Origin: a virus
Length of the DNA: 23,673 nucleotides
Reading direction: 5' to 3' (one strand)
IMG/VR virus record: IMGVR_UViG_3300008110_006703
Span: 1-23,673 of that record
Shown: in pieces, positions 2,494 to 19,096 of the stretch
How the letters are laid out: each line of letters begins with the position of its first letter
Numbering within the stretch: position 1 is the first letter of the stretch
Translations under genes and position numbers: made by a program
Notes under the pieces: generated by a model
Seen by the model: the letters and a program-made list of their open reading frames with translations, nothing else
What the model was told of the DNA's origin: nothing
The model's database searches: none

Positions 2494-2970
2494 TTAAGAA
2501 TTATTGCTGGCCCACCAGTGCTCCCAGGGGAATACCACCCATTCATCTTGCCTGTCTTCGGCAATATAAGAGCCCACGAAGTCTGCGGCATCCTGGCTAG
2601 CTGGCTTTTCGAACAGTACGGCATAGCGGATATCGCCAGCCAAGGGTACTGTGGCAGCAATTTCCTTGACTGTGACCAGAGTCTTACCGGTGTCATTGAT
2701 GTCGTCGATGAACATCACTGGACCACATCGCCAGGCATCGCGCAGGCCATGACTCACACTCATGGCATCGACTATGGCGGCATCGCGCAGACTTACCTGT
2801 ATGGGAAACAACGGACATTCATAGTAGTGACTTAGCATCACACCCAGGGGCAGTCCACCGCGATTGGGTGCTACTATGGCGCTGGGGCGAAAGTCCTGCA
2901 AAGCACTCTCGCGCACAATTTTATGCAGTAGACTACGCACTTCAAAATCATATACATTGCGATGTTTCAT
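2494..2970 (-). CDS. Phosphoribosyltransferase domain protein
   Basis: A 158-aa type I phosphoribosyltransferase. Residues 86-97 carry the PRPP-binding loop MFIDDINDTGKT (hydrophobic strand, two acidic residues, then TGKT). An early APNRGGLPLG segment (34-43) matches the usual region after the first strand. The family transfers phosphoribose from PRPP to a base such as xanthine, hypoxanthine or guanine; the substrate cannot be told from sequence. Its ATG overlaps the stop of the upstream amidotransferase-like gene by one base (TAATG), indicating translational coupling. It is the last gene of the operon that starts with queD and carries gp47 and gp46. A role in purine or deazapurine salvage for the modification pathway is an inference. 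Confidence 0.85.
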   Translation of the reverse strand: MKHRNVYDFEVRSLLHKIVRESALQDFRPSAIVAPNRGGLPLGVMLSHYYECPLFPIQVSLRDAAIVDAMSVSHGLRDAWRCGPVMFIDDINDTGKTLVTVKEIAATVPLAGDIRYAVLFEKPASQDAADFVGSYIAEDRQDEWVVFPWEHWWASNNS

Positions 2971-3605
2971 TATCTCTCCATTATGTTATCAACAAACTCC
3001 AACAGCAGGCGATTGTGTTCGCCGCCGTGCCAGAGCCCACGCATGTAGCTGGGACTCTTATACCAATAGGCCTGACTTTCAGGATGGCATCCAATCAATC
3101 CTATGCGGTTCTGTATTATAGTCATGCTGTAGCCTGTGTCGTAGGTAGCATAGACATCCTGATCGCCGCCCAGGAAAGTACAACCATCATAGAAGAACAT
3201 CTTCATGGGTGTGCCTTGCCAGTTCACTGGCATGTTCTTGATGTGTGGCCGTCGAGTATCCGTACCAGGCTGTATGATGTACTGATCTACTCGGGTTTCA
3301 TCTAGTATGTCAAAGTAATTACGGTCTGCCCAATAGGCACCCATGCAGATGCCAATGTAACGACCACCATGACGCAGATATCTTTGTATGTAGGGCTTGT
3401 GCTTCTTTGCCACAGCATCAAATCTATCGGCATCGCCGGTGCCACCAGGAAATAATACAGCATCTACATCGTCAAAGAACGAGTCTTCCATTTCGTTCTT
3501 GCCAAACAACTTAAAACTATACTTGCTCTCCAAAGACTTGATCACACCATTGCTGCACTGCGCATCACACACGGGCTCGTGCATGAACAAAGCTATGCGC
3601 TTCAT
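2970..3605 (-). CDS. BPL_N-like (class I amidotransferase fold) protein
   Basis: A 211-aa protein with a flavodoxin/amidotransferase-like fold signature: an LFPGGTGD turn near residues 51-58, a nucleophile-elbow cysteine in GICMGAYW (C87), and a late GCHPES segment (H174, E176) in the place of the His-Glu pair of a Cys-His-Glu triad. This pattern is typical of the biotin-protein-ligase N-terminal (BPL_N) domain, relatives of which occur in phages as stand-alone proteins. The reaction is unknown; amide hydrolysis is possible because the triad appears intact. Its ATG overlaps the upstream gene (ATGA) and its stop overlaps the phosphoribosyltransferase start, so the two are probably made together. 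Confidence 0.75.
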   Translation of the reverse strand: MKRIALFMHEPVCDAQCSNGVIKSLESKYSFKLFGKNEMEDSFFDDVDAVLFPGGTGDADRFDAVAKKHKPYIQRYLRHGGRYIGICMGAYWADRNYFDILDETRVDQYIIQPGTDTRRPHIKNMPVNWQGTPMKMFFYDGCTFLGGDQDVYATYDTGYSMTIIQNRIGLIGCHPESQAYWYKSPSYMRGLWHGGEHNRLLLEFVDNIMER

Positions 3606-6717: not shown

Positions 6718-6896
6718 AGAGAGGCTTTGAGTTTTTCAATTTGGTCTTTGAGCATTAATTTTTCTTTTTTCATTTTACCCATGTCAACATCGTTGAGATA
6801 GTTACTGTATCCCCAGGCAATATTGTATTCTAATTCACGATGGCGTTCTTCTAGATGTTTAATGGTTTCAGTGAGACTGTGGTTTTCATCAATCAT
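6714..6896 (-). CDS. DUF465/YdcH-like small coiled-coil protein
   Basis: A 60-aa protein reading MIDENHSLTETIKHLEERHR at its start, then a second helix with MKKEKLMLKDQIEKLK. The two-helix layout with an LEERHRELE first helix and KKxKLxLKDxI second helix matches the DUF465/YdcH family of small helical hairpins. I chose the ATG at 6896 because AGGGG lies 5 nt upstream; an open frame extends further to 6935 but only inside the queD gene. It slightly overlaps the queD end and overlaps gp47 by ATGA. The function of the family is unknown. Confidence 0.75.
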   Translation of the reverse strand: MIDENHSLTETIKHLEERHRELEYNIAWGYSNYLNDVDMGKMKKEKLMLKDQIEKLKASL

Positions 6897-7416
6897 AGGT
6901 CCCCTCATAGGTAGCACTGTTGGCATTGTGTTCAAATACTTCTACGCTGCGTAGTCTGACTCCTGCACCCACAGGATATCGAGCTCGGAATTGATTGCCG
7001 TTTGGACAATAATATTCATTGCCGTTTTTAAAAATATGCAGTATGGTGGCCATTTCTTTGTAGGCAAGTTCTGCAAACTTCTCACATCCAACTGCTTCTA
7101 CAATACGAATGTCGCATACGCCACCAACGTCGTTAAGCCCTAGTGATGCCAGTGCTTTGAATTTGTCTAAATGTGGATCATCTTCGGCAACTACTAAAGT
7201 ATGATCAAACATCCATTCACTCCACTCCTTGAATGCCTTGAGTCCGCCAAAGTCCATGACCCAGTTACGGTCATCCAGGGTCTCACTTTCAAAGATCAAT
7301 TTGATGCCGATGCTGTAGCCATGCAGCAGACTGCAATGACTATGCGAACTGCGCCATTGACGAAAGCAGCAGCTTAGTCCACGGTCATTACCATAGGTTT
7401 TTGTGCTTAGATACAT
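6889..7416 (-). CDS. queD: QueD-like 6-carboxytetrahydropterin synthase (6-pyruvoyl-tetrahydropterin synthase family)
   Basis: A 175-aa protein of the PTPS/QueD family, which converts dihydroneopterin triphosphate to 6-carboxytetrahydropterin, the second step toward 7-deazaguanines. Visible features are an SSHSHCSLLHGYS segment (H25, H27, catalytic-position C28, H32), the VMDFGGLKAF strand (residues 53-62), the DHT motif (71-73) and GCEKFAE (110-116) at the substrate-binding glutamate position. The usual HGH zinc pair is HGY here (Y34), so the metal site may use H27 or the extra histidine instead. It is the first gene after a strong promoter and leads the operon that carries gp47 and gp46. 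AAGGAG precedes the ATG. Family assignment is firm; activity on this substrate is inferred. Confidence 0.87.
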   Translation of the reverse strand: MYLSTKTYGNDRGLSCCFRQWRSSHSHCSLLHGYSIGIKLIFESETLDDRNWVMDFGGLKAFKEWSEWMFDHTLVVAEDDPHLDKFKALASLGLNDVGGVCDIRIVEAVGCEKFAELAYKEMATILHIFKNGNEYYCPNGNQFRARYPVGAGVRLRSVEVFEHNANSATYEGTYD

Positions 7417-7428
7417 GTTCTCTCCTTA

Positions 7429-7899
7429 CTACTTTATATTATTGTATATTGTCTGCGGTGCAGAGTCAATATTCTCCAGGCGATTTTTTTCTATGTTGTA
7501 GACTCGCTGTCGAAGTTCGGTGGTGGAAAAACTGTGCTTGCGATCATTGAAGTAGAATTCAATGCCACGGTTTAGACATTCAGTCTTGCCAGTAAAATCT
7601 CGGCCCTGATATTCCACACCCAGGATGCGAATGTCTATGGGATAACTTAGAAAGATGTCGATGAGTTCTTTTTCTGTGCTGTACACTACAATCTCATCCA
7701 CATACTTGCAGGCATCGATCTGAACAAATCTTTCAAATACACTCTGTATGGGTTTGTTTTTTTCTTTGGGGCGATCAATGGTAGGATCGGTCTGCAGACC
7801 CACAATTAAATAATCGCATTGGCGTCGTGCTTCTTTGAGCATGGTGACATGACCTGCGTGAAACAGATCAAAGGTTGAACAAGTAAATCCTATTTTCAT
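7429..7899 (-). CDS. Cytidylyltransferase-like nucleotidyltransferase (TagD/RfaE-C type)
   Basis: A 156-aa protein of the HxGH nucleotidyltransferase superfamily. The N-terminus has the GFTCSTFDLFHAGH motif (H14-A-G-H17), and FSTTELRQR near residues 123-131 resembles the ISTT-type motif that binds the nucleotide. The family couples CTP or ATP to a phospho-sugar or phospho-alcohol, for instance glycerol-3-phosphate cytidylyltransferase. The substrate here is unknown. It follows the 2OG-oxygenase gene with an ATGA overlap and is the third gene of the gmd operon, so a role in making an activated sugar or alcohol for glycan decoration is plausible. Confidence 0.88.
   Translation of the reverse strand: MKIGFTCSTFDLFHAGHVTMLKEARRQCDYLIVGLQTDPTIDRPKEKNKPIQSVFERFVQIDACKYVDEIVVYSTEKELIDIFLSYPIDIRILGVEYQGRDFTGKTECLNRGIEFYFNDRKHSFSTTELRQRVYNIEKNRLENIDSAPQTIYNNIK
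7441..7469 (-). promoter_or_regulatory. sigma-70-type promoter for the queD-gp47-gp46 operon
   Basis: On the minus strand TTGACT (7464-7469) and TACAAT (7441-7446) are separated by 17 bp, each one mismatch from consensus. The -35 box lies in the last codons of the cytidylyltransferase-like gene and the -10 box is about 25 bp upstream of the queD start. Confidence 0.75.
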
Positions 7900-8534
7900 C
7901 GGAATAAAGGTCCATGTGCCCAGGTTACTAAACTATTCCGACGCCCACTACGCACCGGCGTTACTTCATGCAGTATAAAGCTAGGAAATACAACAATGGT
8001 TCCGCGCTGTGCTGGAGCCAGTACGGGTTGATCATGACCAATATGCATCAAAAGTTCACCACCCTGATATTCAGCAGGATCTGTGAGCTGCAGAGTCATG
8101 CTTAACTTACGACTGGTCATCTGGCTTTTGACGCCATAGGCAATATCAAAATGCGGAGCATAAAACTCAGCTCTGTCTTCGTTGTAGTTTGTAAACTGCA
8201 GGGGCTCATACATGTCAATGACGAATTTATACCATTCATCGTTGATGGTATGTATACAATCGTTTATTCTATCAAATACCCACTGAGTTTCTGGAGTTGG
8301 AAACAACCATGACAACGTACAGGTTCTGGTACTGTTGACAGCAGAACCATCGGCTATGCGCCCCTCATGCGCCTGCTTGGCCAGACCAATCTCTACAATT
8401 TTATCAAGCTCGGCGTCTGTAAAGCCGCTGGGCATACCAACAAAGGGTTGAAAGGTTTCTTCTCTGAGTTGTTGCATTGTACTATAGATCCATTTTGATT
8501 TAAATTTCTCGTCTAACTCTTGTAATGTCTGCAT
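7896..8534 (-). CDS. 2-oxoglutarate/Fe(II)-dependent oxygenase (prolyl-4-hydroxylase-like)
   Basis: A 212-aa protein with the facial triad HFD (H128, D130) and a distal [14 protein letters not shown] (H189, with R199 for the 2-oxoglutarate carboxylate). The GGELL and [10 protein letters not shown] strands around them are typical of P4H/PKHD-type dioxygenases. Such enzymes hydroxylate protein side chains or small molecules, and phage members are common but mostly unassigned. The first 35 bp overlap the end of gmd in another frame; no better start with a ribosome-binding site is visible. Neighbours suggest a carbohydrate or virion-protein substrate, but nothing in the sequence fixes it. Confidence 0.88.
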
Positions 8535-9528
8535 GAACCATGCCGCGGCAAAGCTCTTCGAGATTGGTATGACTTTCCCAACCTAATTTTTCTCGAGCCT
8601 TGCTGGGATCACCGATCAATAAATCTACTTCTGCGGGTCGATAAAACTGAGGATTGACTCGCACTAAAACTCGACCACTACCAACTTCATAGGCCAATTC
8701 ATCTTCGCCTTGACCAGCGAAGGCAACGTCGATGTCCGCAGCAGCAAATGCCATTTTGACAAAGTCACGCACAGTTTCGGTGCGGCCTGTGCTAAGAATA
8801 TAACTGTCGGCTGTGTCCTGCTGCATCATGCGCCACATGCCTTCGACGTAGTCTTTAGCGTGACCCCAGTCACGTTTGGCATTCATATTACCAAGTTCGA
8901 TGTGTGTCTGTACGTTGTGTTTGATGCGAGCCACACCGTCGGAAATTTTACGAGTTACAAATTCCTTGCCGCGCAGTTTGCTTTCATGATTAAACAGGAT
9001 ACCACTGCAGGCATAGAGATTGTAGCTCTCGCGATAGTTAACGGTCATCCAGTGTGCAAATAGCTTGGCTACACCATAAGGTGAGCGAGGATAGAACGGC
9101 GTGTTTTCAGTCTGTGGTACGGCCTGCACTTTACCGAACATTTCAGACGTGCTGGCCTGATAGTATCGAATTTCTGGATTGATCATGCGAATGGCTTCGA
9201 GGAAATGCAGCGGGCCAGTGGCATTGATTTCTGCGGTAGTCAAGGGCTGTTCAAAACTCAAACCAACAAAACTCTGTGCAGCTAGATTGTATATCTCCTG
9301 CGGCTCGGTCTGTTGAATAAGTCGCATGATGCTGCTAAAGTCAGTAAGGTCATAGCCCACCAATTCCAAACGCTCATGGTCCTTGATGCCGAGTTCTTCG
9401 ATGCGCCAAAAGTTCGGAGCGCTGGTGTGTCGATATGCTCCAAATACTTTATAGCCTTTTTCCAGCAAAAGTTCTGCAAGATAGGCTCCATCCTGACCAG
9501 TAATACCTGTGACGATAGCACGACGCAT
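8500..9528 (-). CDS. gmd: GDP-mannose 4,6-dehydratase
   Basis: A 342-aa short-chain dehydrogenase/reductase-type enzyme of full length for the family. It begins with the NADP-binding [16 protein letters not shown] stretch, has the catalytic STSEMFG and YGVAK (Tyr-x-x-x-Lys) motifs, the NHES/RGxEFVTRKI region typical of GMD, and the [14 protein letters not shown] segment. It converts GDP-mannose to GDP-4-keto-6-deoxymannose, the branch point to GDP-fucose, GDP-rhamnose and related sugars. GGAGG precedes the ATG and a perfect promoter lies just upstream. It is the first gene of a three-gene unit with an oxygenase and a nucleotidyltransferase. No GDP-fucose synthase is seen here, so the next step must be encoded elsewhere or by the host. 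Confidence 0.97.
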
Positions 9529-9553
9529 GTCATTCCTCCATGATTAAAATCTT

Positions 9554-9582
9554 ATTATAAATTAGCTGCGGTTATTTGTCAA
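9554..9582 (-). promoter_or_regulatory. Perfect sigma-70 consensus promoter for gmd
   Basis: On the minus strand TTGACA (9577-9582) and TATAAT (9554-9559) are exactly 17 bp apart. The -35 box overlaps the final codons of the glycosyltransferase gene and the -10 is about 25 bp before the gmd ATG. It starts a new transcript inside a run of co-oriented genes. Confidence 0.9.
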
Positions 9583-10645
9583 TGAAGCTGCGAATGTCTT
9601 TGAACATTTTATCGCCGCTGAAGAAGGTAGATTGAATTCGATCCAATTGAGTTTCGAGATGAATGCGATAGCTTTCGTAGTTCTCAACAAAGTCAATGAT
9701 CTGATTGGCCAGAGCCGGTTTATACAAAGCAAAATTACTATAAAAATCTTCGTTCACAGCATATTTAAATGGTGCTTGATAAATTTCACGATAACTTAAT
9801 TTATCGGGCACTATGGGCAGACATCCTGCACTCATGGATTCGAAAGTACCGATGCCGAGATTTTCATGTCTATTAGCTGAGAAGATAACCTTGCAGGATT
9901 TTAAAAATTCATAGTATTGTTCTTTGCTAAAATTCTGTTCCTGAGTTTTAATAAATTCAATCTCAGGATGCGTGCGCTGAACCTCTTCTCGCAGCTCATC
10001 AAAGATCCACGGAGCCTTGTCGTTATTCAAACGATGTGGGAATACAACAATGTCTTTCTTTGGTTGCTTATTTCTAAGATTTTTAATCCACTCCAGGGGA
10101 TATACACCGGGACTATAACACTTAGATGTCTGACCAATGTCCAGAGTCTTGATGAATAAATTCTTATTGTGTTCAGATCCAAAGAAGTTCTGATCCAAGG
10201 CATGAAACATGCTGCGTTCTAAGTCACGAGCCCAGGCTTTATTCTCAATGGTTGATCCAAGAATATCAGTTGGGTCATACCAACCTGCATGCCAAATACC
10301 GCCCATGTATACTTTGATGCCAGTTAGTTCACTCATATACTTAACAAAGTGTACTGTCTGATTCCAGGCATCGGTAAAAAAGAAGTAGTCGCCTTTCTTT
10401 ACCGTACCATCACCAAACATTTTGGCAATTTTTGTTGCCTGACTTGCTTTATATTCGCAGGTACCGGCAAAATTAAAAAATGCACCCGCAGTAGGAGCGT
10501 CATAACCTTCGGCTTCACCGCTGATATTCTGCACAGTAAAAATATCGCCGAGATGTTTCTCAGCGATCTGCGGAAAATATCGCTGCCATTGCTTGGTATA
10601 ACGATTATCCAGGGGCTCAATGTCTACAATATAAAGTGTTCTCAT
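9572..10645 (-). CDS. Glycosyltransferase (GT-B, GT4-like C-terminus)
   Basis: A 357-aa protein. The C-terminal half has a GT-B donor-site pattern: VVFPHRLNNDKAP as the start of the second Rossmann domain, then SANRHENLGIGTFESMSAGC, an E-x(n)-E-like loop in which GIGTFE contacts the nucleotide sugar in related enzymes. The N-terminal half carries aromatic-rich acceptor-domain segments and no signal peptide or membrane span. Donor and acceptor are unknown; with gmd and the ManC-type cupin nearby, a GDP-linked sugar is a reasonable guess, and a virion protein, modified base or surface glycan could be the acceptor. It ends the folE operon and overlaps its upstream neighbour by ATGA. Confidence 0.82.
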   Translation of the reverse strand: MRTLYIVDIEPLDNRYTKQWQRYFPQIAEKHLGDIFTVQNISGEAEGYDAPTAGAFFNFAGTCEYKASQATKIAKMFGDGTVKKGDYFFFTDAWNQTVHFVKYMSELTGIKVYMGGIWHAGWYDPTDILGSTIENKAWARDLERSMFHALDQNFFGSEHNKNLFIKTLDIGQTSKCYSPGVYPLEWIKNLRNKQPKKDIVVFPHRLNNDKAPWIFDELREEVQRTHPEIEFIKTQEQNFSKEQYYEFLKSCKVIFSANRHENLGIGTFESMSAGCLPIVPDKLSYREIYQAPFKYAVNEDFYSNFALYKPALANQIIDFVENYESYRIHLETQLDRIQSTFFSGDKMFKDIRSFIDK

Positions 10646-10863
10646 ATAAAGTCGTAGGTCTTTTCAAAAATTTCTTTATCACAGATGTAAAGTTCGCCAT
10701 CAATGCCCCTCATTAGATAATCACCGGCCTTGCCTTGTTTGTAATTACCTTCCAGGGTATTGACTCGAAACTCTTCGTCAATACGTTTAGCATGTACAAC
10801 AATGGGTCTTTTCATACAGCCACCCATGTCTGCCACTTGTTCAAATGTATCAAATGTTTTCAT
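10642..10863 (-). CDS. Small phage protein with GDYLMRG...GELYIC motif, function unknown
   Basis: A 73-aa protein with a KRPIVVHAKRID strand and a GDYLMRGIDGELYICDKEIFEKTY C-terminal half. The pattern GDY-x2-x-G-x2-GE-x-Y-x4-x-F-x2-TY is one I recognise from many short phage proteins of unknown role. It is coupled by ATGA overlaps to the cupin fusion upstream and the glycosyltransferase downstream. No catalytic residues are evident. Confidence 0.75.
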   Translation of the reverse strand: MKTFDTFEQVADMGGCMKRPIVVHAKRIDEEFRVNTLEGNYKQGKAGDYLMRGIDGELYICDKEIFEKTYDFI

Positions 10864-11630
10864 TTTCTCTCAATATCTTCTTCAACGCAGTGTTCACCGT
10901 ATTGGATCTCAATCATCTTCAAAGGCTCGGTGCCTTCATTACATAATTGATGCCATTCGTTTTTAGAAATGTGCACATATTCATGCGTATTATATACGCC
11001 CTTGAGCTCGATGTCAGTAGATTTTTCATCTAATGTCATGACAGTAGCCGTACCTTCGGCAACAAACCAATGTTCCGATCTTTGTTGATGCTTCTGCATG
11101 CTCAGCGATTTACCGGGTTCCACAGTAAGTTCTTTGACTTTGGTTTGTTCACCTACATTATGGATAACTCGATAATAGCCCCAGGGACGTTCAGTCTTAG
11201 GTGCTTTCCATTCTTCTAAAATCCAGCTACTGCTATTGGCTTTATTTTCTCCACCCACACCAAATTCAAATCTTAGATTGTCGTCCTGATAGTCCATTTC
11301 TGGAATATTGGCAGCAGTACGATCGCCGCCATTGGCAAAAATCAACTCTGCACTGGGCCACATTAAACGACATTTATGAATGCAGTCCTTGCTGTTGTTG
11401 GCATCGTCATTGAAACTCATGACATGATCAACAACCTTTAGTCCTTGAATAATTTTACTGCGTTCCAACCAAGACATAAAAGGCCGACCCTTTTTGCGGA
11501 TCAGCCAGGCATCGGAATTGATACCAACAACTAACTTGGTGCCTAGACGAGCCGCGGCCTGAAAATATTGTACATGGCCGCTGTGCAGAGGATCAAAGCC
11601 TCCGGTAACAATGACGATCTTTTCTGTCAT
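10860..11630 (-). CDS. Fusion of HxGH nucleotidyltransferase and ManC/PMI-type II cupin
   Basis: A 256-aa two-domain protein. Residues 1-140 are a cytidylyl/adenylyltransferase-type domain with VTGGFDPLHSGH (HSGH at 16-19), as in the C-terminal domain of HldE. Residues 145-256 are a mannose-6-phosphate isomerase type II cupin like the ManC C-terminus: TERPWGYY, VKELTVEPGKSLSMQKH and RSEHWFVAEGTA, with H181 and H187 as likely metal ligands, ending in IEIQYGE. Each domain would serve sugar-nucleotide synthesis (isomerising fructose-6-P and activating a sugar phosphate), but this pairing is unusual; ManC normally carries a mannose-1-phosphate guanylyltransferase. I chose ATG 11630 because it makes an ATGA overlap with the QueD-like gene; a GTG at 11639 is the alternative. 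Confidence 0.85.
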   Translation of the reverse strand: MTEKIVIVTGGFDPLHSGHVQYFQAAARLGTKLVVGINSDAWLIRKKGRPFMSWLERSKIIQGLKVVDHVMSFNDDANNSKDCIHKCRLMWPSAELIFANGGDRTAANIPEMDYQDDNLRFEFGVGGENKANSSSWILEEWKAPKTERPWGYYRVIHNVGEQTKVKELTVEPGKSLSMQKHQQRSEHWFVAEGTATVMTLDEKSTDIELKGVYNTHEYVHISKNEWHQLCNEGTEPLKMIEIQYGEHCVEEDIERK

Positions 11631-11995
11631 GGGTTCCACTCCAATATAGCACCATTTTCCCCATCCTCAAATACCTGCACTGTCATGGCGCGGCCTGGAT
11701 AGCGATCGGCAATGGTAAAGATTAGTTTTTCTGCAATCATTTCACAACTCTGATAGTCGAGCTGCAGACCACCCGATTGTTCTGAATACAATGATTCAAT
11801 CCACCGTTTGAATTGGATGAATTCGATATCGCGGTCATTGTGCGTGACGCTGATGCGCACCCTGAAATGAAACATATGGCGATGAGGATAGCCAAGAAAC
11901 GATACGTCGGCAAGGTTAGGATCCTCCAGAGCAGCAGGATATTTGTGTATCCCTTCGCGTTGAAATGTTACTTCGATGTGTCTTGTAATCATCAT
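11627..11995 (-). CDS. Divergent QueD/PTPS-like protein next to the transglycosylase
   Basis: A 122-aa protein. FLGYPHRHMFHFRV supplies several histidines at the place of the PTPS zinc site, followed by an IEFIQFKRWIESLY helix matching the family's DF-xx-LK helix, then SCEMIAE (compare GCEKFAE in the other QueD of this phage) and a final VQVFEDGENGA strand like the family's V-x-V-x-E. It is shorter than typical QueD and lacks the upstream cysteine position. It is sandwiched by ATGA overlaps between the transglycosylase and the cupin fusion, so it is probably a dedicated partner in deazaguanine chemistry. Whether it is a second 6-carboxytetrahydropterin synthase or has a new reaction, such as acting on CDG, cannot be told here. 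Confidence 0.7.
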   Translation of the reverse strand: MMITRHIEVTFQREGIHKYPAALEDPNLADVSFLGYPHRHMFHFRVRISVTHNDRDIEFIQFKRWIESLYSEQSGGLQLDYQSCEMIAEKLIFTIADRYPGRAMTVQVFEDGENGAILEWNP

Positions 11996-13242
11996 GCAAA
12001 CAATCCTTCCAATGTGCTGGGTTCAGTATATTCTAATACTGGTTGAGTGTCCATGTAGGGTCCGACATGGCGAAGCCAGTGATCAAAGTCCGCCGTTGTC
12101 TGTACTGAGTATAAGGCATCAAAGGCATTCCTGTCAAGCCCTTTGGCAAACTTCATCACCTCTTTTTTACATTTGCTGACGCGATCAACTTGTTCGATAA
12201 AATTTTTGATGCAGCTAGACACATACACAACATAGGTCTGTAGACTGTTATCAATCGAACCATGTTTGGCTTCATAGGTTTTACTGCTGATGTTCAGACA
12301 TTCATAGAAGGTGTCGACATCCAATTCATAGAACGGATAATTGCGTTTGATGTCTTCCAGCACAATGCGATAGCTATCGTCAAAGGCTCGAGTAAAGGTG
12401 AACGTAGTATCGTTCATGTAGTATCGACCCTGAGTAACTCCGCTGGTGTGCGTGGTTGAGTCATAGCTCATTTCTACATCTTGATATACTCCGTTCTGCA
12501 TCATGATGATCTGCGGCAACATGCGATATACTGATCCCACACCCAGCAGATGCAGATGTCGACTTTCTAACTCTATGGGAAGCTGTGAATAGTAAAAGGC
12601 TCGTTTGATGTCTTCTAGACTGCCTTTGCCCAGAGCCGCAGCTCCCATGGCTATGCCGCCGATTTTTTTAACATGGTCAGGCGTAAGTTCATCTACAATA
12701 TACTCCACCCATTTCATATAGCTGTCATAGTCATTGCCCTGAGCAATCAACATGGGTCGAGCGCCGCTGCCTTTCTCTTGAAAGGCATCTATTTGTCGGC
12801 GAAGATTTCTTCCGGTTTCCCTGGCACATCGTTCAAGATCGCTGCGATCAAAACGTCGATTGCTAAGATCAAGTCGTTCGCTGCGTCCGCTATTTAAAGT
12901 GCGCACAGGTATAACATCAAAGCACATGGCAATAGTAGAATTTTTGGCCTGGCTGGCATAAACTTCTTCTTTGAGTTGATCAGTGATGGTTTTACCCAAG
13001 GTGATCATCTGCAGGCCACCGCTGTCGGCATGGATACTATGCACATGCGGTCTATAGTGTTCGCCCATCCATTCGCCGATGCGCTTTTCCACAAAGGCAT
13101 TGTACAACAAACTTACGCGATGATTGTTGGTGTTATTCAAGGCACCAAAAGTACGACAGAACCAATCCATGTTCTGTGGACTTAGGCTCTCAAGATACAT
13201 CAATTTAAAGTAACTACTGCCGCTGGCAACGTATTCAAACAT
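11992..13242 (-). CDS. Guanine transglycosylase of the TGT/DpdA type (probable DNA 7-deazaguanine insertion)
   Basis: A 416-aa TIM-barrel transglycosylase. Signatures in order are HADSGGLQM (D73-S74-G75-G76), KIGGIAMGAAALG near 193-205 (the GGLAxG-type substrate loop) and HLLGVGS at 231-237, with SYDSTTHTSG near 259-268 offering D261 as the likely nucleophile. The CxCxxC zinc cluster of bacterial tRNA-guanine transglycosylases is absent, as in phage and genomic-island DpdA proteins, which insert preQ0 or related bases into DNA instead of tRNA. It sits in one operon with folE, MazG and a QueD-like gene and near queE and queD. DNA as substrate and protection from restriction are inferences from the known DpdA system. 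A tRNA-directed role cannot be excluded. Confidence 0.85.
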   Translation of the reverse strand: MFEYVASGSSYFKLMYLESLSPQNMDWFCRTFGALNNTNNHRVSLLYNAFVEKRIGEWMGEHYRPHVHSIHADSGGLQMITLGKTITDQLKEEVYASQAKNSTIAMCFDVIPVRTLNSGRSERLDLSNRRFDRSDLERCARETGRNLRRQIDAFQEKGSGARPMLIAQGNDYDSYMKWVEYIVDELTPDHVKKIGGIAMGAAALGKGSLEDIKRAFYYSQLPIELESRHLHLLGVGSVYRMLPQIIMMQNGVYQDVEMSYDSTTHTSGVTQGRYYMNDTTFTFTRAFDDSYRIVLEDIKRNYPFYELDVDTFYECLNISSKTYEAKHGSIDNSLQTYVVYVSSCIKNFIEQVDRVSKCKKEVMKFAKGLDRNAFDALYSVQTTADFDHWLRHVGPYMDTQPVLEYTEPSTLEGLFA

Positions 13243-13243
13243 A

Positions 13244-13747
13244 TCAACTTCCCAGTATTTTCATTAGGTGCTTGGTTTGTGTAAGGGCGTCATCTAGAGC
13301 ATTATGATATACTCCTTCGCGTTTGTCAATGGGAATATTGACAATGTTCTTCATGGTGCGATAGCAACGATCCTCCCAGGGTAACCAGGGGCGTTTTCTA
13401 TCCAGAACAAAGTAGGCATTTTCCATGATGACATTGTCAAAACCTGCGCCATTGCCCCAGGTGGGTAAGCTCTTTGCTCCATACCAGGCTTCAAAGTTGG
13501 TCAGTGCTTCTTCCAGGGGAAGATTGTCCTTGAGCAAAGCAGCGCGAGCCTCCTTGCTCTGCTTTTGCCACCACTCTAAAGTAGACTTCTCGAAATGCAG
13601 ACCAGCGGCCCGGCAGGTTACGGGATCAATGGTGCAGTAAAACGTATCAATGATCTGATCATCTTCAAATTTTACTGCTCCAATGCTGGCAATAGCAGCA
13701 GTTGGTCTGGTGCTATAGGTTTCCAGGTCAATCATTACGTTTATCAT
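13244..13747 (-). CDS. DnaQ-like 3'-5' exonuclease (DEDDh fold)
   Basis: A 167-aa RNase H-like exonuclease. Exo I is MIDLET (D7, E9), Exo II lies around GFDNVIMEN (D104), and Exo III is YHNALDDA (H148, D152 or D153), the DEDDh arrangement. An ASIGAVKF strand follows Exo I as in exodeoxyribonuclease VIII/Rv2179c-like phage proteins. The preferred start is ATG 13747, which overlaps the upstream stop as ATGA; an upstream TTG at 13759 is less likely. It lies directly before the transglycosylase and could work in nucleic-acid turnover linked to modification, or as a general phage exonuclease. Confidence 0.9.
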   Translation of the reverse strand: MINVMIDLETYSTRPTAAIASIGAVKFEDDQIIDTFYCTIDPVTCRAAGLHFEKSTLEWWQKQSKEARAALLKDNLPLEEALTNFEAWYGAKSLPTWGNGAGFDNVIMENAYFVLDRKRPWLPWEDRCYRTMKNIVNIPIDKREGVYHNALDDALTQTKHLMKILGS

Positions 13748-13947
13748 ATCCAGCGCCAATAGATAGGATGATCTTTGTCCTCAGGCAATTCGCGATGCGC
13801 AATTATTCCATTCTGTAGCCAGATACTGAGCAACATTTCAACACTGCTGCCATGACGCTTGGCATGCTGTCTGGCCATCTTGGGAATGCCATACCACTTG
13901 GCCAGTACCTTGTCCCAGCGTCGTTCTACTCGTTGTTTCTTTTTCAT
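13744..13947 (-). CDS. Small basic protein, function unknown
   Basis: A 67-aa protein starting MKKKQRVERRW and containing WYGIPKMARQHAKRHGSS, ending PIYWRWI. I chose ATG 13947, preceded by AGGAGG with 5 nt spacing and overlapping the MazG-like stop (ATGA); an open frame to TTG 13974 exists but lacks such a signal. It is rich in lysine, arginine and tryptophan, which would fit nucleic-acid binding, but no known motif is visible. Confidence 0.65.
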   Translation of the reverse strand: MKKKQRVERRWDKVLAKWYGIPKMARQHAKRHGSSVEMLLSIWLQNGIIAHRELPEDKDHPIYWRWI

Positions 13948-14219
13948 GCTGCCTCCTTGAAGATATTGCTCCAACGTTCCAATTTACTGTACTTAGTTCT
14001 AGTGGCCTGACGCACAAATTCAGGATCTATGAGTTTATGTGCCTGTAGTAATTCAATCATGCACAGCAGATCACCAACTTCTTCTTCCAGACGTTCGCGA
14101 TTGGTCTTACCATTATAGGCTTCATCCAGGCCAAATCTTAAAATTTTGCTGATGACCTGACTTACCTCAGCACATTCTTCCTGCGTGATTAACAGGACTT
14201 CTTGTTGTTGATTGTTCAT
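13944..14219 (-). CDS. MazG-like nucleotide pyrophosphohydrolase
   Basis: A 91-aa all-helical protein with the metal-binding pattern of MazG/dUTPase-like all-alpha NTP pyrophosphohydrolases: ITQEECAEVSQVISKI (E14, E15, E18) in the first helix and RLEEEVGDLLCMIELL (E46, E47, D50) in the third. It would hydrolyse a nucleoside triphosphate to the monophosphate and pyrophosphate. It overlaps folE by ATGA. Phage MazG proteins have been linked to altering nucleotide pools; next to folE and a transglycosylase it could also clean up a noncanonical or unmodified nucleotide, which is speculation. Confidence 0.87.
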   Translation of the reverse strand: MNNQQQEVLLITQEECAEVSQVISKILRFGLDEAYNGKTNRERLEEEVGDLLCMIELLQAHKLIDPEFVRQATRTKYSKLERWSNIFKEAA

Positions 14220-14944
14220 TTCATTTTAGCAACGATGTCGTAAAATTCTTTCTTCAGGCTCTTGTCGCTTTGGAACACACCACGCATGATCGCAGTAGTC
14301 ATGTCGCTCTCATGCTCCTTGACACCGCGATGAGTCATGCAGTGGTGCTCGGCCTGAACTAGCACTGCCACGCCTTCGGCTTGAGTTTCGGCTTCTATGG
14401 CGTCGGCAATCTGTACTGTCATTTCTTCTTGAATCTGAGGACGGCTGGCAATCCAATCCGCGATGCGATTGAACTTACTAAGTCCAATGACGTTTTTTCC
14501 AGGATAGACTCCGATATAGGCACGCCCCACAATATTTTGGAAGTGATGAGCACAGGTACTACGTATTGAGATGGGTCCTGTGACGTATAGTTGGTCATAT
14601 TCAGTTACATTAGGAAAGGCTGTTACTTTGGGAGGATTTTTATAGCGGCCGCCAAAGGTTTCATGAACAAACATCTTGGCCACTCGACGTGCTGTGTCTT
14701 GTGTATTATGATCATTATCAGTGTCGATGATTAAACTATTTAGCACACCTTGAAATTGGCAGGCTACTTCGTCTACCAGACGTTCAACTTCTTCTTCACT
14801 TTCAATAAAGTCACTGATGTTGTCATTGCTGAAATATCTAGCACCCTGCTGACGAATTCGGTTGCGAATAACATTGCTGATGCTGGTGTGTATCATTGGC
14901 AAATCATCACCGTCATTGCTTTCATAAGCCTTATTATATACCAT
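14216..14944 (-). CDS. folE: GTP cyclohydrolase I
   Basis: A 242-aa enzyme that converts GTP to dihydroneopterin triphosphate, the entry step for folate and 7-deazaguanine synthesis. The catalytic zinc ligands are visible: STCAHHF (C131, H134) and AEHHCMTHRG (C202), with the GLSKFNRIADW segment between them. Compared with a minimal FolE core it has an N-terminal extension of about 50 residues of unknown role. It heads the long operon that carries the transglycosylase and has its own strong promoter with GGAG before the ATG. Its position argues that the product feeds QueD and QueE rather than folate. Confidence 0.96.
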   Translation of the reverse strand: MVYNKAYESNDGDDLPMIHTSISNVIRNRIRQQGARYFSNDNISDFIESEEEVERLVDEVACQFQGVLNSLIIDTDNDHNTQDTARRVAKMFVHETFGGRYKNPPKVTAFPNVTEYDQLYVTGPISIRSTCAHHFQNIVGRAYIGVYPGKNVIGLSKFNRIADWIASRPQIQEEMTVQIADAIEAETQAEGVAVLVQAEHHCMTHRGVKEHESDMTTAIMRGVFQSDKSLKKEFYDIVAKMK

Positions 14945-14968
14945 AATTACTCCTTGTATAAAAATCTC

Positions 14969-14997
14969 AGTATAGTTTATTTAGTGTCATCTGTCAA
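14969..14997 (-). promoter_or_regulatory. sigma-70-type promoter for the folE-transglycosylase operon
   Basis: On the minus strand TTGACA (14992-14997) and TATACT (14969-14974) are separated by 17 bp. The -35 box is inside the last codons of the AbrB-like gene and the -10 is about 25 bp before folE. It probably transcribes nine genes down to the glycosyltransferase. Confidence 0.85.
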
Positions 14998-15159
14998 TAT
15001 ATCTTGTTTCTTTAATGACCAGGTACCGTCTTTGTTGTCAATCCATTCTACGACGTCGCCTTCTTTCCAGCCAACGGTTTGCAGTATTTCATCGGTAAAA
15101 GGCAGCACCAGATCACCCGTCTCAGGATCTTCTTCTAGTGTTATGGTCCAGCTTTGCAT
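14977..15159 (-). CDS. Small AbrB/SpoVT-like protein
   Basis: A 60-aa protein: MQSWTITLEEDPETGDLVLP, then ILQTVGWKEGDVVEW and DNKDGTWSLKK. The strand-turn-helix order with 'GW-x-EGD' in the middle looks like a half swapped-hairpin AbrB/MazE domain, and such short phage proteins are common. It follows queE after a single base and precedes the folE promoter. DNA binding or assembly with a partner is possible; nothing fixes its role. Confidence 0.72.
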   Translation of the reverse strand: MQSWTITLEEDPETGDLVLPFTDEILQTVGWKEGDVVEWIDNKDGTWSLKKQDILTDDTK

Positions 15160-15160
15160 G

Positions 15161-16072
15161 TTATTTTCCTATGACGTTGCCAAACACATAGCAATGATTG
15201 CGTGTAGCCACCTGATAACCACGCAGCATGGCCTCGGTGCAGATCTCACCAACTGTGGATACTTCCTGTGAGTCCTTGGTGGCTCCTACAGGCATGATCC
15301 AGACGTCAGGACAGTAGTAGCCTTGCTGACCAAATAGACGTTGAATACGATCAACATGGTCATCTAGTTCAGTCCAGCAGTCCTGACTACCATTGCACAC
15401 AAACTTCAAAACTGCGGTGCTGTAGGTTTCTGTGGCATAGCTAAAAATTACATCGTCTTTGACAGCATCCTTTTCACCAGCCACGGTCCAGAGTTTAGGA
15501 CTCATGGCCCAGTGCCAACGACTACCACCGTCTTGTGCAAACTCTTCATTGATGAAGGTACGCAGCTCGTCAGTCAAGGGCTTGGTGGCATTGGTCTCCA
15601 CAGTAACGGTGCGAGGCAGTTGACCGCGCGCCTGCAGTTCTTTTAGTATGGCCAGCATGGCCTTTTGCCACATCATGGGCTCGCCACCAGTAAAGCAGAG
15701 CTGCGTATCCTGACCAGTTATGGGATGCACCCAATCGCCGTTGGGATTGGTTTTATGTCGTATTTGATCCGTCAGCAGATCACAAACGCGAGGTGCATCG
15801 GCATCGTGTGCCAGGTTTTTATACTTGGCACTCCAACTATAACTTGAGTCACAGCCATGATCCCATACAGGTAAGTCTTCGATGCGCTTTACTTTGCTAA
15901 CATCAAAGCTGGCATAGGGCAAGACATAGGTTGCGGGATTGGTTGGATCCATCTGACCAAATCCATTGCACTCTAGATTGCAGCCAAAGAAGCGAAGCCA
16001 GACGCTGGACTTGCCTGCTAGCTCAGCCTCACCTTGAAAGCTGTGAAATATTTCTGAATAACGAATTCGCAT
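15161..16072 (-). CDS. queE: 7-carboxy-7-deazaguanine synthase (radical SAM)
   Basis: A 303-aa QueE. It begins MRIRYSEIFHSFQGEAEL, typical of the family, and has a GGEP motif (residues 129-132) for S-adenosylmethionine. The [4Fe-4S] cysteines are C31, C35 and C74: CX3C is followed by a 38-residue insertion before GCDSSYSW, instead of a compact cluster loop. It converts 6-carboxytetrahydropterin to CDG by ring contraction. I chose ATG 16072, with GGAG 5 nt upstream, over ATG 16087, which lacks this signal. It is separated from folE by one small gene and has its own promoter. Confidence 0.93.
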   Translation of the reverse strand: MRIRYSEIFHSFQGEAELAGKSSVWLRFFGCNLECNGFGQMDPTNPATYVLPYASFDVSKVKRIEDLPVWDHGCDSSYSWSAKYKNLAHDADAPRVCDLLTDQIRHKTNPNGDWVHPITGQDTQLCFTGGEPMMWQKAMLAILKELQARGQLPRTVTVETNATKPLTDELRTFINEEFAQDGGSRWHWAMSPKLWTVAGEKDAVKDDVIFSYATETYSTAVLKFVCNGSQDCWTELDDHVDRIQRLFGQQGYYCPDVWIMPVGATKDSQEVSTVGEICTEAMLRGYQVATRNHCYVFGNVIGK

Positions 16073-16099: not shown

Positions 16100-16128
16100 A
16101 GTATATTATACTTCGGCTTCAGGGTCAA
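16100..16128 (-). promoter_or_regulatory. sigma-70-type promoter for queE
   Basis: On the minus strand TTGACC (16123-16128) and TATACT (16100-16105) are separated by 17 bp. The -35 lies within the last codons of gp55 and the -10 about 28 bp before the chosen queE start, which also supports that start. Confidence 0.75.
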
Positions 16129-16681
16129 TATCTGATTCTTCGTTTTTTGGTTTTTTTAGTGCGGCTTTGGTGGCTGGGCTTACAACCTTTTCATAGTCAT
16201 AGCCATCCAGTTGATTTTTGAGATACTCCAGGAACTGATTTTGAAAGTCTCCGTTGTCCTGTTCCTGTGTAATGAGTTCGGTGATGTCCAGTTGATCAAT
16301 GTAGCGATACTTGGTCTGCAGCATTTTCTTTTCCTTCTGAATACGTCTAATGAAGGCAAAGTAGGTAATCTGCGTAAAGTAGGCAAATGGATTTTTACTC
16401 TTGGCAGGATCGAAGTTGTTCACCACTGCTAGACAATTCTCTATGGCATCCGAAATCATTTCATCCTTAAAACTATAGTTGATGAAGTTCGATTTGTAGC
16501 TCAGGTGTCGGGCAATTTTGATAAAACAGTCACCCAGGTAATTGCTGACCTGCGGTGTTTCGGTTCCTGCTGCTCGAGCAGCCTGCACACCGGCGCGGTG
16601 TTCCAGCAGGGCGGCCAGGAAGGCCTGATTGTCGATGTAATGATTGGCTGCGGCCTTGGTGGGTTTTGCTTCGGTTTCCAT
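16106..16681 (-). CDS. 55: gp55-like late-transcription sigma factor
   Basis: A 191-aa protein close in size to T4 gp55. The central region SYKSNFINYSFKDEMISDAI...FDPAKSKNPFAYFTQITYFAFIRR matches the sigma region-2-like core of gp55, which binds host RNA polymerase core and reads the TATAAATA late promoter. Three such promoters occur in this window upstream of virion genes. It is the last gene after uvsY, uvsW and the Sm-like gene. An ATG preceded by GAGG starts it. The C-terminus is acidic and poorly conserved. Confidence 0.93.
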   Translation of the reverse strand: METEAKPTKAAANHYIDNQAFLAALLEHRAGVQAARAAGTETPQVSNYLGDCFIKIARHLSYKSNFINYSFKDEMISDAIENCLAVVNNFDPAKSKNPFAYFTQITYFAFIRRIQKEKKMLQTKYRYIDQLDITELITQEQDNGDFQNQFLEYLKNQLDGYDYEKVVSPATKAALKKPKNEESDIDPEAEV

Positions 16682-16755: not shown

Positions 16756-17178
16756 TTAATGAACCATCTTGGTTTTATAGTCCTGCAGTGCTTGCAGTAA
16801 TTCTTCGTCGTCTTCTGTGAACTGTGCTTCATCCACCGCTGCCTGTAGATCCTGTTCGTCATCCTGTCTTTGCTCTTCCAAATGTTCAAGAAAGGTTTCA
16901 TAACGCATGGCAGCACCAGGCAACATGGTTGTTACGCTGAAGATATGATCAGTACTAATTTGAACTTTGTCGGTATCACCTATGGGTATCATAGGCATCA
17001 TGCTTATAGTTTCAACCAACTCACCTTCGGTGTCCATGTATTTAAAACTATTGAACACCACAGGATTATTTACTGTGATGAATTTAGATACAACAACATC
17101 CTGCGTAGTAATGTCCTGATCAGTGCTGCAGGCCATGAGCTCGCCATTTTTTAATTTTACGGCTTTGTAGTAGATCAT
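16756..17178 (-). CDS. Sm-like fold phage protein between uvsW and gp55, function unknown
   Basis: A 140-aa protein: YKAVKLKNGELMACSTDQD opens like an Sm1 motif (a strand with 'LKNGE' turn), a PMIPIGDTDKVQISTDHIFS stretch follows, and the C-terminal 45 residues are strongly acidic (QDDEQDLQAAVDEAQFTEDDEE). I recognise the general shape from T4-like cyanophages, where it is an uncharacterised protein next to uvsW or gp55. It overlaps the uvsW stop by four bases. RNA or protein binding is possible; no catalytic motif is seen. Confidence 0.7.
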   Translation of the reverse strand: MIYYKAVKLKNGELMACSTDQDITTQDVVVSKFITVNNPVVFNSFKYMDTEGELVETISMMPMIPIGDTDKVQISTDHIFSVTTMLPGAAMRYETFLEHLEEQRQDDEQDLQAAVDEAQFTEDDEELLQALQDYKTKMVH

Positions 17179-18656
17179 TGTAGCGGCACCTCGGTTAGTT
17201 TGTAATCAAACCCTTCATCGTTATAGATCCGAATTCTTTCCATCATATGCAGTAGGGTAAAATTCTTACGACTCTTATAACTTAGATCGTCGCCTATGTC
17301 ATATAGCCTGCAGCGATCCTTGGTATCACTGGTGCGCAGTCCACGGCCTATGCTCTGCAGGTTGCGTATGCGACTCTTGCTGGGACTGGCAAACACAATA
17401 TTATGCAGGTTCCGTATATTTATACCTGTGGAAAATGTGCCGTAGCTAGCCACAATTATTGCGTCGTTTTCTTTCTCGGTAATGCGACGCACTTCTTCAC
17501 GCTGATCAGTCTCAGTTCCGCCATAGACAAAAAATACTCTGCGACCCTCTGCTGCGCGTTCGGCAATCATCTCATGCAGAGCCTTGCCATGTTTTTCCAC
17601 ATACTGAAACAGCACCAGGGTGTTGCCTGTCTGTGCCAGAGCCAGATTGCGTATAAAGCGATTGCGGGCAGGATGAGTTACCAACCAGTCCATTTCTTCT
17701 TGGTAGGTTAGGCTTCGAACATTTTTACGAACCTCGTCAGGATATTTCATGATTAAACACTGTATGTCTAGATCGGCCAGTTGTTTGTTTTTAATCAATG
17801 CTTTGGTGGATGTTACTCGGTGTACTGCACCAAAGATGCCTTCCAGCACCAGCTTGTGAGTCTTCATACCATCCAGGGTACCCGTAGTGCCAATACGATA
17901 CGCACAATGCGGCATTTTATTCAGTATGCCAGTCAAACTCTGAGCCTTGAACAAATGTGCTTCATCGCCTATGACTACGTCATACTTCTCAAAAAACTTT
18001 TTCGGCAGTTTGTATAAACTTTGCCAGGTAGATATTGTAACAGGCCAGTCTTCGGCTTTGTCGGCACCCGCATAGATTCTATGTACGTGTTCGCTGGCGC
18101 GCCAACCATTGGCGCTGCTGTAGTCCTGGAAGTCTGCATACAACTGTTCAACCAGACTGGTGGTGGGTACTAGTATTAAAATTCTGCGTCCCTGTTCTAA
18201 ATGATAGCGCACCAGACTATAGATGATCAGACTCTTGCCAGATCCCGTGGGGCTCAGCAACAGAGCTCGATGATTGTGCACCGCATGTTTGACTGCATCG
18301 ATCTGATAGTCACGAACCTCAATGGGTTTGCCATGTCCCTGTAGATTGAGATTTTCTATGTACTGCTGTACATCAATGTAGGGTGTGGGCAGTACTGTCT
18401 GCTGATCGTCAACCTTGTATTGATTTTGTTGGGCAAATAGTTTGACATAGGGCACCAGGCCAGTATAGATTTCGCGAGTGAACAAATTGAATAATCTAAC
18501 TTTGCCATCCCAGAGCTTGGCTCGGTACTGTGGCATGAAGCGTGCACCAGGTTGCTCAAAGGTAAAGAAGTCGCTGAGCTCTTGCAGTACACCTACATCA
18601 GCGCTGTCTATCTGACAATGCACATGATTTTTACTCTGTATGACGATATCAGACAT
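17175..18656 (-). CDS. uvsW: UvsW-like DNA/RNA helicase
   Basis: A 493-aa superfamily 2 helicase. The N-terminal 100 residues are the UvsW-specific region (RAKLWDGKVRLFN and YTGLVPYV are typical). Motif I is PTGSGKS (136-142), motif II is DEAH (231-234), motif III lies near TGTLDG, and motif VI is QSIGRGLR. It unwinds branched DNA and R-loops, and in T4 ends origin-dependent replication in favour of recombination. I start it at ATG 18656, which makes a TAATG overlap with uvsY; an in-frame ATG at 18686 would overlap uvsY by 31 bp. Confidence 0.95.
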   Translation of the reverse strand: MSDIVIQSKNHVHCQIDSADVGVLQELSDFFTFEQPGARFMPQYRAKLWDGKVRLFNLFTREIYTGLVPYVKLFAQQNQYKVDDQQTVLPTPYIDVQQYIENLNLQGHGKPIEVRDYQIDAVKHAVHNHRALLLSPTGSGKSLIIYSLVRYHLEQGRRILILVPTTSLVEQLYADFQDYSSANGWRASEHVHRIYAGADKAEDWPVTISTWQSLYKLPKKFFEKYDVVIGDEAHLFKAQSLTGILNKMPHCAYRIGTTGTLDGMKTHKLVLEGIFGAVHRVTSTKALIKNKQLADLDIQCLIMKYPDEVRKNVRSLTYQEEMDWLVTHPARNRFIRNLALAQTGNTLVLFQYVEKHGKALHEMIAERAAEGRRVFFVYGGTETDQREEVRRITEKENDAIIVASYGTFSTGINIRNLHNIVFASPSKSRIRNLQSIGRGLRTSDTKDRCRLYDIGDDLSYKSRKNFTLLHMMERIRIYNDEGFDYKLTEVPLQ

Positions 18657-19096
18657 TACATTAATCCGTTGGTAAATTTGGTCCACTCAATGCTGTTTTT
18701 AATATCCCAGGTACGACTATGCAGACTCTTCAAAATGCTTTCCAGCTGCAGCAGCACAGTTTTAAGATACTCTAGCTTGTCCTGTGACTGGATTAAATCT
18801 TCGTCGGTGGCCATGAATTCATCCATCTCATTCTTTATGGGCTTGATGCCCTGATACTGCTCCCAGCCCAGACTCTGCAGTTCGTCACGACTGAGCTCGC
18901 CACGGAAGTAACGATATTTGACTCGGCGTAGTTTGAGATAGTCTGACTCGGCTTTGCGATGCTGTAGTCGAGCCGATGTCAATAGATTGAGATACTTGGC
19001 ATGTAGTTCAGGCGTGCGCGCTGCAGCGCGACCTAGATTGGTTTCGTCGATCTTGCTGTCTTGTTTCCAGGCTTCTTGCAGTTCAGTAAGTTTCAT
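18656..19096 (-). CDS. uvsY: UvsY-like recombination mediator
   Basis: A 146-aa helical protein (T4 UvsY has 137). The start MKLTELQEAWKQDSKIDETN and the ELHAKYLNLL segment match UvsY, which helps the UvsX recombinase load on gp32-coated single-stranded DNA. No UvsX gene is in this window. The gene is followed by uvsW with a one-base overlap, the same pairing as in T4. A consensus promoter with a palindrome lies upstream. Confidence 0.92.
   Translation of the reverse strand: MKLTELQEAWKQDSKIDETNLGRAAARTPELHAKYLNLLTSARLQHRKAESDYLKLRRVKYRYFRGELSRDELQSLGWEQYQGIKPIKNEMDEFMATDEDLIQSQDKLEYLKTVLLQLESILKSLHSRTWDIKNSIEWTKFTNGLM

Follow-up and report, generated by a model that had tools for sequence, protein, structure and literature searches.

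In the work of Hutinet et al. 2019 (PMC6884629), the Vibrio phage nt-1 protein YP_008125322 was defined as DpdA2, and the DNA of this phage was described as carrying mainly dPreQ0. The same source places Mycobacterium phage Bipper and the uncultured phage 7AX_2 in its group 2, in which DpdA is accompanied by FolE, QueD and QueE and QueC is missing, and it offers 7-carboxy-7-deazaguanine (CDG) as a possible base for Bipper. Here we analysed a virus genome fragment of 23,673 bases (the window; IMG/VR record IMGVR_UViG_3300008110_006703, positions 1 to 23,673) that encodes FolE, QueD, QueE and a DpdA2-family guanine transglycosylase, with two further genes in the same minus-strand run, one for a 122-amino-acid (aa) protein with a predicted QueD fold (11627-11995) and one for a glycosyltransferase (9572-10645). 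These two genes, which the gene list of an earlier sequence-only reading of this DNA had left out, track the QueC-less state among related phages.

We lean towards reading this gene run as a branch of 7-deazaguanine DNA modification in phages that works without QueC. In it, the 122-aa protein would tailor CDG in place of QueC (the simplest guess being decarboxylation to 7-deazaguanine), DpdA2 would carry out the exchange into DNA, and the glycosyltransferase would, as its linkage suggests, add a sugar to the modified base; DNA modified in this way would block host restriction. More tentatively, guanine in phage DNA could be replaced by a glycosylated 7-deazaguanine derivative through a widespread QueC-less module in which a QueD-fold tailoring enzyme and a glycosyltransferase dedicated to this task join DpdA2 or, in its stead, a 512-aa transglycosylase with a DSGGFQ motif. 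The final base would, on this reading, be derived from CDG, probably tailored by the QueD-fold protein and possibly glycosylated.

CDG pathway genes and the DpdA2-family transglycosylase

The transglycosylase gene (11992-13242, minus strand) encodes, as judged by sequence, a member of the published DpdA2 family. Its product is a homolog of nt-1 DpdA2 (tblastn E 6e-34, 31.9% identity over 66% of the query), the matched nt-1 gene being that of YP_008125322, and a whole-length multiple alignment was made. D73SGG, D109 and D261 were invariant in 25 of 25 aligned DpdA2 rows; the DSGG and FD motifs aligned to those of E. coli tRNA-guanine transglycosylase (TGT) by hhalign, and the nucleophile D261 was matched by eye. 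The AlphaFold2 (AF2) model, with a predicted local distance difference test (pLDDT) score of 88.4, adopted the TGT fold (Z 20.7, root mean square deviation [rmsd] 3.8 over 299 residues), and the bacterial DpdA 7ui4 stood at rank 15 of its Foldseek list. The protein matched phrog_10773 (E 9.8e-88), labelled 'unknown function', while no Pfam family matched at 0.01 and the profile retrieved nothing from the PDB at 0.01. A DpdA2 search of the phage collection gave 70 matching records, many of them near-copies and only part of them covered by our whole-record searches; 48 were Vibrio phages, and a single match covered at least 80% of the query in only 3.

The sequence-only reading had described a transglycosylase without the bacterial zinc cluster, and this held: CxCxxC was present in 0 of 25 aligned rows, whereas E. 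coli TGT carries it at residue 302. We therefore rejected a zinc-containing tRNA TGT for 11992-13242 on the missing motif together with the DpdA2 homology. It would be very surprising if the enzyme acted on host tRNA and these genes served to manipulate queuosine. The TGT fold and a match to the NCBIfam TGT superfamily model (E 2.1e-6, below cut-off) speak for such a target, but the lack of CxCxxC, the lack of a Pfam TGT match and the homology to DpdA2 from a phage with dPreQ0 in its DNA (PMC6884629) speak against it. We also count against it that, according to the relevant passage of that paper, the viruses analysed there have no QueA, QueG or QueH homologs. The window DpdA2 probably acts on DNA, in which, by analogy with nt-1, it would exchange the modified base for guanine by means of its conserved aspartates.

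All four genes named in the sequence-only reading were recovered as open reading frames (ORFs) on the minus strand. FolE (GTP cyclohydrolase I; 14216-14944) and the phage-type QueD (CPH4 synthase; 6889-7416) exceeded the Pfam cut-offs (PF01227, E 4.9e-49, and PF01242, E 4.3e-13, respectively), QueD also matching phrog_2389 'QueD-like' (E 4.2e-33), and the radical SAM enzyme QueE (CDG synthase; 15161-16072) was named by phrog_2076 'QueE-like radical SAM' (E 1.1e-43). All three proteins also matched their NCBIfam models, in each case below the curated cut-off, and the profile of the window QueD retrieved the solved QueD2 structure 7v0f (E 3.5e-11). The cluster cysteines of QueE are C31, C35 and C74, the third being displaced by an insertion between C35 and C74; among the 64 loci matched by the window QueE at E 1e-10, CxxxC was found in 63 and GCD[ST] in 62. 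Going by their families, FolE, QueD and QueE would convert GTP to CDG, and the earlier claim that these genes could make CDG alongside a DNA-type transglycosylase is supported by the family assignments and the DpdA2 homology.

Two features of these enzymes were observed in passing. The C35-C74 insertion of QueE is common to nearly all of the 64 matching loci. The phage QueD and 25 relatives have HGY in place of the HGH of E. coli QueD, and most rows are without the first zinc histidine (AHR), giving a non-canonical-looking zinc site.

QueC and the 122-aa QueD-fold protein

QueC was sought with PF06508 at its curated cut-off in profile searches over whole records. The window gave 0 matches, in line with the sequence-only reading and within a 23,673-base fragment. 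QueC exceeded the cut-off in 7 of 40 records (nt-1, pf16, Mendera, 1.081.O, KVP40, G020 and G023) and in 1 of 5 further records (Vibrio phage D479); the Mendera match was partial and weaker (30.9 bits), and the gene is annotated QueC-like. Whole-record profile searches of 29 records, partly chosen for the 122-aa protein, found DpdA2 in 11 and the QueD-fold protein in 24. Five of the 11 DpdA2 records had QueC and neither the QueD-fold protein nor the glycosyltransferase, and the other six (BUCT-ZZ01, X1, ACP17, G001, G008 and G018) had both of these and no QueC over the cut-off. The QueC-less six include the complete circular genome of Synechococcus phage BUCT-ZZ01 and the 167-kb G001 (completeness not given).

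The two states were also found in close relatives. X1 and Mendera have QueE proteins that are 72% identical and DpdA2 proteins that are about 33% identical; in Mendera, QueC adjoins DpdA2, and in X1 the glycosyltransferase and QueD-fold genes stand around DpdA2 and QueC is missing. A sub-cut-off QueC match in X1 was rejected, as it falls in a gene annotated NAD synthase. ACP17 is the nearest published relative of Menderavirus, according to the passage of PMC9025141 consulted. Menderavirus has QueC; its relative ACP17 is QueC-less and encodes both the glycosyltransferase and the QueD-fold protein. On the DpdA2 tree, in which long branches meet and the nt-1, KVP40 and 1.081.O genomes form one clade, 2 changes between the QueC and QueD-fold states were needed, the starred branches forcing only 1.

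A Gat-QueC substitute was considered and dropped. The class-I glutamine amidotransferase-like ORF at 2970-3605 (BPL_N), which has GICMG and HPE motifs and adjoins a phosphoribosyltransferase gene, was found only in loci L012, L014 and L023; L012 and L023 are one contig, and most fetched loci do not reach this position.

We consider it improbable that the pathway is an ordinary preQ0/G+ pathway whose QueC was missed through fragmentation or is supplied by the host. The window measures 23.7 kb and related records 156-178 kb, so QueC, QueF or ArcS could lie elsewhere in the genome, and QueC is widespread in bacteria, exceeding the cut-off in 11 of 14 control genomes, so that a host could supply preQ0. 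Against this stand the six DpdA2 records with the QueD-fold protein, BUCT-ZZ01 and G001 among them, none of which has QueC over the cut-off. The lineage as such probably does lack QueC.

The 122-aa protein is encoded next to DpdA2, its gene (11627-11995, minus strand) overlapping that of the transglycosylase by 4 bp. It has no Pfam family, and its PHROG match, phrog_17812, is labelled unknown. The AF2 model (pLDDT 92.4) matched E. coli QueD 4ntk with Z 12.5 and rmsd 2.4 over 110 residues. H17, H38, H40 and E110 were invariant in 32 of 32 rows; the three histidines align with zinc-site histidines 1, 2 and 3 of E. coli QueD, and E110 with its Glu anchor, in agreement with a PTPS/QueD fold with its zinc histidine triad. 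The QueD catalytic Cys and Asp-His pair were not found, the Cys position being an invariant Leu34 and the Asp-His stretch falling at an alignment gap. On the roles that we take the zinc, Cys, Asp-His and Glu residues of QueD to have, the metal site is kept and the proton relay is lost, which makes it plausible, from the model, that the protein catalyses another reaction on a ring of similar type, for example the decarboxylation of CDG. Reportedly, dCDG, dDG and the decarboxylase DpdL were described by Cui et al. in 2023, and the 122-aa protein may be DpdL, the two being likened here by proposed role. In that case this part has already been described, and what is new is the glycosyltransferase linked to it. 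A literature search for DpdL as a phage decarboxylase found none, the broader matches listed being off topic.

Several observations weigh against this reading of QueC and its replacement. The profile link between the 122-aa protein and phage QueD is weak (hhalign probability 57.6), and the global alignment with E. coli QueD had a low probability of 9.3, so that the predicted fold is the main evidence for QueD likeness; the 122-aa profile gave 13 PDB rows at E 0.23-1, with no PTPS-family member among them. Two of the six QueC-less DpdA2 records (G008 and G018) came from the search with the 122-aa protein and are thus no test of its presence, so the unbiased split, over the remaining nine records reached through DpdA2, is 5 to 4. 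Lastly, in G020, G023 and D479, which carry the QueD-fold protein and use other transglycosylases, QueC-family proteins over the cut-off stand far from the module; these three records are exceptions to a strict exclusion of QueC and the QueD-fold protein in the wider family. These far-off QueC-superfamily proteins, from two environmental records (CGxCWWC motif) and D479, are encoded at L114:590-1243 (minus), L115:357-968 (plus) and L116:711-1514 (minus).

The linked glycosyltransferase and the other transglycosylases

The glycosyltransferase gene (9572-10645, minus strand) lies 1 kb downstream of the 122-aa gene, and its product is GT4-like, with a PF00534 match below the cut-off (E 1e-4) and an EX7E motif (ENLGIGTFE at 261). 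Across a 22-row alignment E269 was invariant and E261 was kept in at least 90% of rows, the BUCT-ZZ01 protein having no EX7E there; searched against the PDB, the profile had no match at 0.01. With a profile of 22 relatives, the glycosyltransferase was found in 18 of the 29 records, in one copy each and never more than 2 kb from the QueD-fold gene. These 18 records span T4-like, PA5oct-like and Phosso phages; the transglycosylase is DpdA2 in six of them and of the 512-aa family in 12. It was missing from the five DpdA2 records with QueC and from six QueD-fold records with a 286-aa transglycosylase-like protein.

The Phosso glycosyltransferase as query against 50,697 phage records matched 20, of which 16 hold at least 80% of the query; all 16, duplicates of one phage included, belong to the 26 phage records encoding the QueD-fold protein, and the other four matches (PhiXhv-12, -15, -16 and Ep032) do not. 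When the window protein served as query, 19 records matched, BUCT-ZZ01 not being one of them, and in 15 of these at least 80% of the query was covered. The gene order varied: glycosyltransferase, DpdA2 and the small gene in X1, small gene then glycosyltransferase in Phosso, the reverse in PA5oct, and DpdA2, glycosyltransferase, QueD-fold gene and QueE in ACP17, where none of the genes in the 18.8 kb shown is annotated with sugar metabolism. This close linkage in varied orders in distant phages argues for a shared function of the glycosyltransferase and the QueD-fold gene, and from it we judge sugar addition to the modified base to be the probable role of the glycosyltransferase.

The QueD-fold protein is also accompanied by other transglycosylases. 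We examined 79 loci with it and without DpdA2, 71 reached through the 122-aa protein and eight from isolate phages; the family labels came from the stretches around the 122-aa-type gene (for Phosso, from the isolate-phage search) rather than from whole-record profile searches. Clustering placed a 512-aa family with DSGGFQ and FDCASP motifs in 65 loci and the glycosyltransferase family in 69. The 512-aa family aligned to DpdA2 (hhalign probability 95.9, E 5.5e-9) and matched 13 isolate-phage records, 12 of them over most of the query; the two members searched had no PHROG or NCBIfam match. This unnamed transglycosylase-like family occurs in T4-like and jumbo phages (L070:7655-9187; PA5oct, L105:9233-10852; Phosso, PV764938 323228-324742). 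A 286-aa transglycosylase-like family, with nine members in eight loci, including phiST, showed a weak link to DpdA2 (hhalign 35.7). Up to three kinds of transglycosylase are thus found alongside the QueD-fold protein, as would suit a protein that helps to make the base.

Some side observations concern these families. Proteins of 260-290 aa with a DNGGFE-like motif, possibly a short DpdA type, stand near the QueD-fold protein at L103:10807-11586 (phiST gp042), L108:9677-10534 and L109:9417-10289, sometimes adjoin a nucleotide kinase and come without the glycosyltransferase. In Vibrio phage Bakedbeans (L107:8212-9363) and Chryseobacterium phage MA9V-3 (L110:8431-9312), the QueD-fold domain forms the C-terminal portion of a larger protein.

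The sugar-addition step meets objections of its own. In the window, two ORFs separate the glycosyltransferase from the 122-aa gene, and the former stands among sugar genes (GDP-mannose dehydratase, nucleotidyltransferases and a cupin), so that it could serve a surface polysaccharide. It is only 37% identical between the window and L012, whereas FolE, QueD and DpdA2 are 92, 90 and 77% identical, and 10 of the 26 QueD-fold phage records have no glycosyltransferase match. We know of no obvious handle at C7 of 7-deazaguanine for a sugar. Cyanophage glycosyltransferase clusters have been read as polysaccharide systems in a survey (PMC7824862) that, in the part consulted, also assigns PA5oct a deazaguanine synthesis and incorporation system. 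Among the matches listed in a literature search joining deazaguanine and glycosyltransferases, the titles and abstract openings, those of PMC12783734, PMC12707154, PMC7824862 and PMC8306585 among them, propose no glycosylated deazaguanine in phage DNA.

These points bear on the strongest competitor, a plain dCDG or dDG virus with FolE, QueD, QueE and DpdA2, in which the QueD-fold protein is DpdL and the glycosyltransferase is unrelated to DNA. It would explain why phiST and five other whole records have the QueD-fold protein without the glycosyltransferase, and why the window glycosyltransferase stands where it does, but it sits poorly with a gene that, in all 18 records having it, is single-copy and no more than 2 kb away from the QueD-fold gene, and with the absence of this gene from the five DpdA2 records with QueC. 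We regard this competitor as a rather unlikely alternative to a QueC-less pathway with sugar addition. The sequence-only reading had left the choice between CDG itself and a decarboxylated base; its pathway stands, and the choice is too narrow, as it omits two proteins, the glycosyltransferase and the one with the QueD fold, that occur where QueC is missing.

The gene run and comparison with known systems

The window comes from a T4-like phage, as indicated by PHROG labels for a late sigma factor (16106-16681) and a DNA helicase (17175-18686), the latter presumably UvsW-like; a gp46/gp47-like nuclease pair was spotted by eye. The module genes are all on the minus strand and mostly overlap or are closely spaced. 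The run begins with QueE, a 60-aa ORF, FolE, a MazG-like gene, a small ORF, a DEDD exonuclease-like gene, DpdA2 and the 122-aa gene, and continues with a nucleotidyltransferase-cupin fusion, a 73-aa ORF, the glycosyltransferase, GDP-mannose dehydratase, a 2-oxoglutarate oxygenase, a nucleotidyltransferase and QueD. Two of these are taken as accessory: the MazG-like nucleotide pyrophosphohydrolase (13944-14219, minus; PF03819, E 1.5e-5; phrog_4856, E 3.6e-26), whose gene overlaps FolE by 4 bp, and the DEDD exonuclease-like protein (13244-13759, minus; PF16473, E 3.9e-45), which adjoins DpdA2. The latter gene was present in 14 of 14 loci reached through DpdA2 and, among loci reached through the 122-aa protein, in nine of nine with DpdA2 and 3 of 71 without it.

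Outside the run, a xanthine/guanine phosphoribosyltransferase-like protein (2494-2970, minus; PF00156, E 2.3e-10) is a candidate for guanine salvage and may recycle the guanine released by DpdA2. Its 22 matching phage records comprise 15 of Campylobacter, five of Cellulophaga, BUCT-ZZ01 and one other. Deazaguanine is known from the DNA of Campylobacter phages of this kind.

Among described phages, nt-1 and KVP40 (Vibrio), pf16 (Pseudomonas) and Mendera (Stenotrophomonas) resemble the window in having FolE near a DpdA2 homolog and other deazaguanine genes, but they have QueC, and their whole records gave no QueD-fold or glycosyltransferase profile match. By their published description, Bipper and 7AX_2 share the QueC-less set with the window; the passage of PMC6884629 on them names no replacement for QueC. 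The module described here can now be tested, as one small QueD-fold protein and one glycosyltransferase occur together where QueC does not, both in phage isolates (BUCT-ZZ01, ACP17, X1, PA5oct-like phages and Phosso) and in many environmental T4-like viruses.

Phages with dDG or dCDG and DpdL reportedly also make their base from CDG without QueC, and we know of no glycosyltransferase in that pathway. The alpha- and beta-glucosyltransferases of T4 act on 5-hydroxymethylcytosine (hmC), placing a sugar on this modified base once the DNA has been replicated. The window likewise belongs to a T4-like phage that would put a sugar on a modified DNA base, but with a GT4-like EX7E protein whose proposed target is a 7-deazaguanine and not hmC. 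If a sugar is indeed placed on this base, the module would represent a new class of DNA hypermodification, in which glycosylation in the style of T4 is joined with 7-deazaguanine chemistry.

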